A DNA stretch of 32,106 bases from an uncultured SAR86 cluster bacterium (GTDB lineage: Bacteria > Pseudomonadota > Gammaproteobacteria > Magnimaribacterales > D2472): contig CABZRR010000001.1 in assembly GCA_902528215.1 (NCBI GenBank), forward strand, positions 192,620 to 224,725, written 5' to 3'. Both the position numbers and the translations under genes were made by a program. This document shows, in pieces, positions 18,884-21,705 of this stretch (its first letter is position 1; the number at the start of each line of letters is the position of its first letter). The notes beneath the pieces are model-generated. The model saw only the letters and a program-made list of their open reading frames with translations. It had not been told where the DNA came from and made no database searches.

Positions 18884-18905
18884 AAAAAAAAACTAATTGG
18901 ATCAG
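18884..18905 (-). terminator. Weak intrinsic terminator after ahcY
   Basis: At the end of ahcY the transcript can form CUGAU-CCA-AUUAG (18905-18893, five pairs including one G-U) followed by nine U residues (18892-18884). The stem is short and overlaps the ahcY stop codon. The U-run is the strongest part of the evidence. It would separate ahcY from lptM-lysA. Confidence 0.38.
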
Positions 18906-20296
18906 TATTTATATTCTTCTTCTTTAAATGGACCATCAACTGGAACATTAATGTAATCGGCCTGTTCATTAGTAAGCTTAGTTATCGTCCCACCAAAACC
19001 TTGAACCATGAGCTCGGCAACTTCCTCATCCAATTTTTTTGGGAGAACCTCGACTGTTATCATTTCATTTTGCTTATCAGCATCATTGACGTTTGCAAAA
19101 CCTTGTTTATACAAGTGCATCTGAGCTAGAACTTGATTAGCAAATGATCCATCCATTATTCTGCTAGGATGACCTGTCGCATTCCCAAGGTTGACTAATC
19201 TACCTTCAGCCAAAAGTATGACATAGTCTTTGCTTTGAAGGTCTGGTATACCTGATGGAGAAGTATCTCTAAATACTCTATGAACTTGCGGTTTAATTTC
19301 TTCCCAATACCATTTGTCTCGCATGAACTGAGTGTCAATTTCATTATCAAAGTGTCCAATGTTACATATTACAGCTGTATTTTTTACCGAGCGTAACATA
19401 GCTTCATCACAAACGTTTACATTTCCTGTGGTTGTAACTATAAGGTCAGTATCTTCAAGGACTGCTATATTGATGTCTTTTACGTCTCTGGTTACGATTC
19501 CATTGTCATAAGTAGATACTACCTCAAAACCATCCATGCACGCTTGCATAGCGCATATGGGATCAGACTCTACAACTCTTACAATCATTCCCTCTTGTGC
19601 AAGACTTAAAGCAGAACCTTTACCAACATCTCCATATCCAATCACTAATGCTTTCTTAGAAGAAAGAAACATATCTGTGCCTCTTTTAATCGCATCATTT
19701 AGACTATGTCTGCAACCATACTTATTATCATTTTTTGATTTAGTAATAGAATCATTTACATTAATTGCTGGCACTTTAAGCTCATTTTTTTCAAGCATTG
19801 CTTTTAATCTATGTACGCCAGTTGTAGTTTCCTCTGAAATTCCATGAATGTTTTCAAGCATTTCAGGAAATTTAGAGTGAACCATATGAGTCAGATCGCC
19901 ACCATCATCTAGAATCATATTTGCATCCCAAGATATGCCATCTTTAACTATTGTTTGCTCAATGCACCAATCAAACTCCTCATCAGTTTGACCTTTCCAG
20001 GCAAAAACAGGAATTCCAGCTGCGGCAATAGCTGCAGCAGCATGATCTTGAGTGGAAAAAATATTGCAACCAGACCAACGGACTTCAGCACCAAGATCCA
20101 CTAATGTTTCAATTAATACAGCTGTTTGGATGGTCATATGAATGCATCCCATAACTTTTGCACCGGCAAGAGGTTGTGCATCCTTATATTTTGTTCTTAG
20201 AGCCATTAATGCAGGCATTTCATTTTCAGCAAGAGAAATCTCTCTTCTACCGAATTCAGCAAGACTCATATCAGCAACTTTATAATCGTTTTCCAT
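18902..20296 (-). CDS. ahcY: Adenosylhomocysteinase (S-adenosylhomocysteine hydrolase)
   Basis: AhcY splits S-adenosylhomocysteine to adenosine and homocysteine, removing the inhibitor of methyltransferases. The protein has 464 aa. The NAD site is G220-YGDVGKG227. Other family motifs are [26 protein letters not shown], the [13 protein letters not shown] segment, and the C-terminal KEEEYKY that reaches the partner subunit's cofactor. A good ribosome site, GGAGTG, lies just before the ATG, unlike most genes here. It lies 80 bases downstream of metK in the same direction, pairing the making and recycling of SAM. Confidence 0.97.
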
Positions 20297-20376: not shown

Positions 20377-21531
20377 TTATTCTGAAATATCAGCTGCTTT
20401 ATCTGTTTTTTCCCAAGATAGCTCAATATCTGACCTTCCAAAGTGACCATATGCAGCAGTTGGAAGATAGATAGGTCTTTTTAAATCGAGCATATTAATA
20501 AGACTTTTTGGCCTGAGATCAAATTTTTCTTTGACAATTTTGACAATTGCTTCTTTAGAGATTTTCTCACTATTAAAAGTTTCTACGTGTATTGATGTAG
20601 GTTCGGCCACACCGATAGCATATGAAACTTGAATTTCGCAATAGTCTGCAAGTCCTGCGGCAACTATGTTTTTAGCAACATATCTTGATGCATATGCTGC
20701 AGATCTGTCTACTTTGGAGGGGTCTTTTCCAGAAAATGCTCCTCCACCATGCCTTGCCATACCTCCGTATGTATCTACAATAATTTTTCTTCCAGTGAGA
20801 CCACAATCACCCACAGGCCCGCCGATAACAAATTTCCCAGTGGGATTAATAAATATATTTGTAGAGTCTAGCAACCATTCCTCAGGAACAATTGGTTTGA
20901 TAATTTTATCCATTACCTCGGTTTTTATTTCTTCCTGACTAACTTCATCATCGTGTTGAGTTGAAAGTACGACTGCAGACAAGCCTTCAATGTTCTTACC
21001 ATCATCAGAGTAAATCACACTAACTTGACTCTTAGCATCAGGTCGCAGCCATTTAATATCTCCACTCTTCATTACATCTGCTTGTTTTTTTACCAATCTG
21101 TGAGAGAGATCTATGGGAAGTGGCATTAATGATTCTGTTTCTTTGCACGCATATCCAAACATTAGCCCCTGATCTCCAGCCCCTTGTTCAAGGTTTTCTC
21201 CCTCACCTTCTGTAACACCTTGAGATATGTCCGGCGATTGCTCAAAGACAAGATTCGTGAATTCACATGTATCTCCATTAAATCCATAATCATCCGAGTT
21301 ATAGCCAATGTCGTTAATTGTTTTTCGAACAACAGGCTCGAGGTCAGGACTTCCTAAGGAAGTTATTTCTCCTGCTATATAAACCATGTTATTTTTTATC
21401 ATGGTCTCGCAAGCCACTCTGCTATTTGGATCATCTGCTAAGTATGCATCTAAAACAGCGTCGGATATTTGATCGCACACTTTATCAGGATGGCCTCCTG
21501 AAACAGATTCGGATGTGAAAATATAACTCAT
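20377..21531 (-). CDS. metK: S-adenosylmethionine synthetase
   Basis: MetK makes S-adenosylmethionine from methionine and ATP. Its 384 aa equal the length of the E. coli enzyme. The ATP motif GGHPDK is at 12-17, the signature [12 protein letters not shown] at 117-128 and the phosphate-binding GGGAFSGKD at 262-270. It is divergent from transketolase, as in Pseudomonas. The leader of about 120 bases contains a SAM-II-like fold and a small hairpin, suggesting feedback control by SAM (inference). No Shine-Dalgarno sequence is visible directly before the ATG. Confidence 0.98.
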
Positions 21532-21593
21532 AATTTTACTTTATTATTTATAACGTATTTTTCTATGGAGGAAAATTTATATTTTATTTTTTC

Positions 21594-21608
21594 CACCTCG
21601 GTAAGGTG
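21594..21608 (-). other. Small hairpin in the metK leader
   Basis: On the minus strand CACCT-TACCG-AGGTG forms a five-base stem with a five-base loop. It lies directly downstream of the SAM-II-like segment and is followed by an A-rich, not U-rich, stretch. It is therefore not a standard terminator. It may be part of a leader RNA structure. Confidence 0.35.
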
Positions 21609-21609
21609 T

Positions 21610-21650
21610 CCTATTTAGCAGTTTTAGTATGCAAGCAGGAACAAATCACT
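21610..21650 (-). ncRNA. SAM-II-like riboswitch candidate in the metK leader
   Basis: On the minus strand the segment holds the ordered elements of SAM-II aptamers: GATTT (21647-21643), then CCT (21639-21637) and TTGC (21634-21631), then TAAA, then GCTAAATAGG (21619-21610). CCT can pair with AGG, and TTGC with GC-(bulged T)-AA, reproducing the SAM-II pseudoknot as I recall it. The weak points are the P1 helix, which can form only three pairs (AGT with ACT), and the distance of 78 bases to the metK ATG, whereas SAM-II usually lies close to the ribosome site. Location upstream of metK raises the prior. Confidence 0.3.
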
Positions 21651-21675
21651 CATGTAAGTAAAAATCTTATTAGTT

Positions 21676-21705
21676 TTGTCAAATAAACACAAATTTATCT
21701 ATAAA
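21676..21705 (+). promoter_or_regulatory. Promoter candidate for the tkt-pgk-fba unit
   Basis: TTGTCA (21676-21681) and TATAAA (21700-21705) are separated by 18 bases; each matches the sigma70 consensus at five of six positions. The transketolase ATG follows about 50 bases downstream. The opposite strand carries a perfect TTGACA at 21682-21677 that could serve metK, but without a good -10 box. Confidence 0.42.

Follow-up and report, generated by a model that had tools for sequence, protein, structure and literature searches.

The leader of the S-adenosylmethionine synthetase gene (metK) of a bacterium of the SAR86 cluster, an uncultured group that is abundant in surface ocean waters, contains an RNA pseudoknot that we interpret as a cis-acting riboswitch of the SAM-II type with a P1 helix of only three base pairs. 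We place the probability at roughly three in four that it represses metK, or metK together with ahcY, most likely at the level of translation; SAM as the ligand, the sign of the effect and its level are inferred from what is known of related RNAs. The element was found in a stretch of 32,106 nucleotides (the window), and all of the features described here lie on its minus strand.

The element is an H-type pseudoknot at positions 21650-21609, between metK (20377-21531, start at 21531; PF00438/PF02772/PF02773) and a divergent transketolase gene. The next gene on the same strand after metK is ahcY, encoding S-adenosylhomocysteine hydrolase (18902-20296; PF05221/PF00670). Read 5' to 3', the pseudoknot has the order AGU-GAUUUG-U-UCCU-GC-UUGC-AU-ACU-AAAACU-GC(U)AA-AU-AGGA. 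P1 is formed by AGU (21648-21650) and ACU (21626-21628), and P2 comprises eight pairs: an outer helix of UCCU (21637-21640) with AGGA (21609-21612), and an inner helix of UUGC (21631-21634) with GC(U)AA (21619-21615), in which U 21617 is bulged. The linker AAAACU joins the 3' strand of P1 to GC(U)AA. Loop L1, GAUUUG (21642-21647), is a conserved core block, identical to the GAUUUG given in upper case in the two Rfam SAM-II consensus lines; UUGC falls in the conserved UUGCA block of SAM-II, and the 3' strand of the inner helix is part of GCUAAA (21614-21619), conserved in SAM-II and SAM_alpha. The AGGA strand resembles a Shine-Dalgarno sequence and lies where the crystallised metX SAM-II riboswitch has its Shine-Dalgarno, AAAGGA (PMC5352136). 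A second hairpin, CACCU-loop-AGGUG (hairpin H, 21594-21608), directly abuts the pseudoknot with no gap.

Much of this had been anticipated by a sequence-only reading of the leader. The segments that it listed (GATTT, CCT, TTGC, a linker, GC(U)AA and AGG) were all found in that order on the minus strand, P1 is indeed limited to the three pairs AGU:ACU, and the hairpin that it placed right after the pseudoknot is CACCU/AGGUG at 21608-21594. The CCT:AGG pairing that it described is present, but the helix is one pair longer (UCCU:AGGA, 4 bp), and the start codon, given as 78 bases away, was measured at 77 nt past the end of the pseudoknot, which is 62 nt past the end of H.

Upstream of the pseudoknot we recognised by eye a probable sigma-70 promoter, TTGTGT-17-TAAGAT (21664-21692; -35 at 21692-21687, -10 at 21669-21664), which is kept as TTGWGT...TAAKAT in 13 leaders of the same genus and is absent from the output of a strict consensus promoter scan. 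A transcript from this promoter would probably start near 21657, about 7 nt before P1. No intrinsic terminator was found on the minus strand 3' of the aptamer. A GTG frame running from H to the metK start is open in the window and stops early in two relatives (G004 and G021, read by eye), and was attributed to chance. Pairing between the 5' strand of the aptamer and the metK start, seen in some minimum-energy folds, was set aside; AAATTATG begins metK in the absence of an adjacent aptamer too.

The metK leaders used for comparison were first gathered by protein search, independently of the motif, and a motif pattern in which the covarying positions were left free then yielded 30 contigs. By label, 24 of these were SAR86, five were assigned only to Gammaproteobacteria or Proteobacteria, and one to Alphaproteobacteria; the last encodes a MetK resembling those of SAR86 and is likely to be misbinned. 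The scan preselects part of the conserved blocks; the metK leaders picked by protein search alone carry the blocks as well. A model built from the element itself (R1) matched 31 of 203 genomes of the order, once in each, with 49 bits or more: 21 of the 26 genomes of the window's genus, 7 of 7 in genus g8, 2 of 2 in g10, and a single g16 genome, in which the match lies on a short contig. The five genomes of the window's genus with no strong match were left unjudged (metK had no match in G003, G011 and G025, the G017 contig ends within metK, and the G022 contig starts within H), and the element was thus present in 21 of 21 genomes of the genus with an assembled leader. Outside the order, a 274-genome sample of the class gave no strong R1 match besides the window's own genome, and no copies of the exact motif were found in viral contigs. 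The sequence-only reading had regarded such an element in a SAR86-like gammaproteobacterium as unusual; the host is SAR86, but the element is no isolated oddity, being the rule in its genus and in two related genera. A second, weaker copy (L201, 36.4 bits, with H and an ATG) is present in one genome at G009:C1:137289-137337, minus strand, where it precedes a short frame, perhaps a broken gene; the G009 assembly has other in-frame stops.

Alignment of the leaders among SAR86 relatives, which the sequence-only reading had suggested, revealed conservation together with compensatory changes in both P1 and P2, so that the finding which that reading had named as counting against it, a lack of both, did not materialise. 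Among 13 same-genus leaders in which metK follows directly, mean pairwise identity was 91.7% for the aptamer and 87.5% over the opening 60 nt of the metK coding sequence, and fell to 73.8% in the 50 nt upstream of the aptamer, 63.7% in H and 47.5% in the spacer. Over 27 distinct sequences, 96.3% of structure cells were paired, whereas sliding the partner strand never gave more than 68.6%. Cells changed on both sides numbered 10, as compared to 4.3 after shuffling, and neither this count nor the covariation score was reached in any of the 500 shuffles. The number of pairs with two-sided changes (two) and the number of pair types were no higher than in shuffles, and since many pairs hardly vary, the covariation support falls mainly on two pairs. 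Counted over the aligned elements, the third pair of P1 is UA, UG or CG in 17, 6 and 4 sequences, respectively, and the outermost pair of P2 is UA in 15, CG in 6 and UG in 5, so that there is covariation in both of the crossing helices of an arrangement that runs P1 5', L1, P2 5', P1 3', linker, P2 3'. One leader (L143) has a GCCU:AGGC outer helix, one column off in the alignment and read by eye, and paired changes are retained in genomes where metK follows directly (G016, GCCU:AGGC). Because the aptamer is conserved above both the coding start and the spacer, carries compensatory changes and gives strong matches in the order but, besides the window's own genome, none in the sample of the class, we consider the element to be real beyond chance, and the proposal of a SAM-II-like pseudoknot in the SAR86 metK leader is supported by this comparative evidence.

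In all 30 contigs the next gene belongs to the methionine/SAM cycle, being metK in 17 and metF (PF02219) in 13, with metF usually followed by metK and ahcY. The start codon of metF-type leaders lies 25-30 nt past GCUAA, and the gene that follows uses the 3' arm of H as its Shine-Dalgarno (for example, ACACCUUAACUAGGUGAAAAAUG in L147); in these leaders and in G009, the Shine-Dalgarno in H lies 4-8 nt upstream of the ATG. The sequence of H varies with compensation (CACCU/AGGUG, CGCCA/UGGUG, GCGUC/GGCGC, UUGCC/GGCAA), and its basal pair among relatives is CG, GC, UA or AU. Folded alone, H has energies of -0.4 to -8.0 kcal/mol. It is weak by itself in some relatives, several of them metF-type (-0.4 to -1.8 kcal/mol), and this fits a hairpin that needs help.

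A strong methylenetetrahydrofolate reductase (MTHFR) match (PF02219) is found within the operon in seven genomes of the genus. Where metK follows the aptamer directly, the strong form is absent from the genome and weaker, divergent MTHFR-like matches occur elsewhere; one such protein (G000:C2:9999-10436), in a genome with no canonical metF, may or may not replace it. The simplest reading of these arrangements is that metF may have been lost, which would have left the aptamer and H ahead of metK. Two leaders of the metK-direct kind (L135 and L142) keep an ATG soon after H; that of L135 is in frame with metK and gives an N-terminal extension, MLKQQYKKSFKII, and that of L142 is out of frame.

We propose that abundant SAM would fill a pocket made by GAUUUG, UUGC and GCUAAA and lock the pseudoknot with its P1 and eight-pair P2, stabilising a triplex and the outer helix of the pseudoknot on the model of SAM-II and SAM-V (PMC6061858, PMC5352136), and that H would stack on the adjoining pseudoknot helix. 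With the order aptamer-H-metF-metK-ahcY, SAM would favour the state in which the Shine-Dalgarno is hidden and would stop translation of the operon, because H holds the Shine-Dalgarno. In the window's lineage, translation of metK would still be repressed from afar, with the Shine-Dalgarno-like AGGA/AGGUG denied to the ribosome as a landing site. Taken by itself, this step at a distance has about even odds, and the poor conservation of the spacer between H and metK counts against it. The sequence-only reading had raised the long distance to the start codon as an objection. The distance is real, but it is likely a product of history, namely the loss of metF, and it has a parallel in Sinorhizobium meliloti metA, where a Shine-Dalgarno-like strand in a SAM-II switch controls translation from a start 74 nt downstream, as compared to 77 nt here (PMC9373788). 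The metA case is alphaproteobacterial, has a terminator in between and has a demonstrated function, whereas function in SAR86 is inferred; by analogy, it is the closest working model for the window's arrangement with its poor local Shine-Dalgarno. The fuller account, in which a short-P1 sub-class of SAM-II, confined to SAR86 as far as seen, controls metF-metK-ahcY through a Shine-Dalgarno hairpin, and loss of metF gave control of metK from about 77 nt as a second independent case, is offered tentatively, at odds rather worse than even.

The same aptamer could act through another output, with UUUUCCUCC (21567-21575) as the intermediary by which H and its neighbours pass the signal on to the metK Shine-Dalgarno; it would pair with the Shine-Dalgarno itself or with GGUGGAAAA, which follows H. 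We consider this relay improbable, at about one chance in five. In four near relatives, G004, G006, G010 and G021, the UUUUCCUC stretch pairs with the metK Shine-Dalgarno in the minimum-energy fold (with one U change in G004), and the Shine-Dalgarno region is mostly paired, with an unpaired probability of 0.14-0.22. The pairing is, however, a property of the closest sub-group only, the other sub-group having no UUUUCCUCC; the window's own Shine-Dalgarno, AAAGUAAAA, is degraded and for the most part unpaired (probability 0.69), and blocking H in the fold still did not free the Shine-Dalgarno. It is considerably less probable that the aptamer is a relic, kept after loss of metF while regulation of metK disappeared from the window's lineage. 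The 77-nt distance, an H with no Shine-Dalgarno beside a start and the poor Shine-Dalgarno of the window's metK would all suit a relic, but an aptamer identity of 92%, higher than at the start of the metK coding sequence in the metK-direct genomes, would not, and paired changes such as those maintained in G016 are unexpected of one.

The class assignment was examined using Rfam covariance models, and here the check suggested by the sequence-only reading, with SAM-II/SAM_alpha and SAM-V, did not settle it: the SAM-II-type scores were below threshold and SAM-V gave no match. Nothing within the window scored above any Rfam gathering score. With the leader alone, SAM-II (RF01726) gave 19.7 bits and SAM_alpha (RF00521) 19.1 bits, failing cut-offs of 44 and 36, which are curation thresholds. 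These were nevertheless the two top scorers among 4227 Rfam families, with full-length alignments on the correct strand that matched GAUUUG, CUUGCA and GCUAAA. In the host genome the leader is only the second-best SAM_alpha match, behind a chance match antisense in a TonB-receptor gene, and the covariance model therefore leaves the site unsettled. At E up to 1, the SAM-II model matched 147 of the 150 genomes examined from the order as well as 7 of the 14 controls, and RF01726 exceeded its cut-off in none of the 150. Given such near-ubiquitous weak matches, and an antisense top match, we rejected the Rfam score alone as proof. No SAM-II-type element anywhere in the order reaches a gathering cut-off, the best-scoring elements of SAR86 relatives attaining 35.8 bits against 36. 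The element is of SAM-II type by topology, conserved blocks and gene context, and we claim no Rfam membership for it; its 3-bp P1, compared to five and six pairs in the Rfam models, makes it a variant.

Membership of the SAM-V, SAM/SAH or SAM-Chlorobi class is as improbable as a relic. SAM-V (RF01826), which is translational and frequent among marine bacteria, has by crystal structure the fold and ligand mode of SAM-II (PMC6061858, PMC2704228), SAM/SAH precedes metK in Rhodobacterales, and SAM-Chlorobi precedes metK-ahcY (PMC4239095), but none of the three models matched the leader at E up to 10, and SAM-V had no match in the genome at E up to 1. That the site instead binds a protein methionine regulator, as DNA operator or as RNA, is very improbable even though other gammaproteobacteria control metK by MetJ and SamR (PMC4239095), as an operator would explain neither changes that keep pairing in two crossing helices nor a core that fits the conserved blocks of SAM-II.

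The SAM-II-type riboswitch that we favour resembles SAM-II (RF01726) and SAM_alpha (RF00521) in element order, H-type topology, the GAUUUG, UUGCA and GCUAAA blocks and its association with methionine and SAM genes. It differs from them in the 3-bp P1, in scores well below the gathering cut-offs and in the separate Shine-Dalgarno-bearing hairpin that abuts the pseudoknot, as well as in its genes (metK or metF-metK-ahcY, compared to metX, metY or metA) and hosts (SAR86, compared to Rhizobiales and Rhodobacterales). The translational metX SAM-II from the Sargasso Sea metagenome (PDB 2QWY) likewise has an AGGA-type Shine-Dalgarno strand in the outer pseudoknot helix (PMC5352136); there the Shine-Dalgarno inside the pseudoknot is the controlled site, whereas in SAR86 a second hairpin bearing a Shine-Dalgarno follows. 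A search of the order for the 2QWY sequence gave no match within 3 mismatches. Known descriptions of SAM-II are mainly alphaproteobacterial. A survey of about 200 proteobacterial genomes reported SAM_alpha only in Rhizobiales and Rhodobacterales (PMC4239095), and another paper places SAM-II most often in the Alpha-, Beta- and Gammaproteobacteria (PMC2704228). We found no earlier description of SAM-II in SAR86 in the literature searched, which consisted mostly of titles and abstracts and excluded most subscription journals.

Other SAM-II-type elements, also below threshold, were observed in the order before metY, a homocysteine S-methyltransferase gene and a TonB-dependent receptor gene, and those of SAR86 metY and the methyltransferase have a 5-bp P1. 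The metY elements (L093, L094, L096, L103, L098, L104, L108, L109, L199 and L200) span three of its families; four of them (L098, L104, L108 and L109) are followed by a hairpin and T-run resembling a terminator, and in f3 genomes the hairpin and T-run after the metY elements were read as an intrinsic terminator. Elements before the homocysteine S-methyltransferase (PF02574; L092, L097, L099 and L102) have a P1 of the type GUCGU:ACGAC. The TonB elements (L091 1501-1560, L095 1501-1559 and L105 1501-1559, in G025, G008 and G020) lie 62-247 nt upstream of receptors that form one family in three SAR86 genomes.

A U-rich pseudoknot variant (GAUUUU...UUUUUUGC...GCUAAAAAA) was seen in the metK leaders L067, L019, L010, L039, L024, L017, L025, L022 and L035 (of G027, G033, G047, G030, G049, G059, G063, G084 and G067, respectively). 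This variant is reminiscent of SAM-V and has a 3-bp P1 of changing sequence, whose strand could be the target of competition by a UCAC further downstream. In SAR86 genera g3, g6 and g9 the U-rich metK leaders look more SAM-V-like, with no SAM-V match above the cut-off.

Automatic annotation overlooks the SAR86 elements because their scores fall below, and in places just below, the Rfam cut-offs, an indication that SAR86 sequences should be added to the Rfam SAM-II models. If our reading is correct, SAM and methionine supply in SAR86 would be run by SAM-II-type riboswitches that have escaped such annotation, with predictions for metK, metF, metY, the homocysteine methyltransferase and the TonB-dependent receptor. 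A receptor controlled by SAM, if true, would suggest that it takes up methionine, B12 or an organosulfur compound. The leaders that have metF and those that lack it would then constitute a natural experiment, in which an RNA switch has outlived the gene whose start site it controlled.
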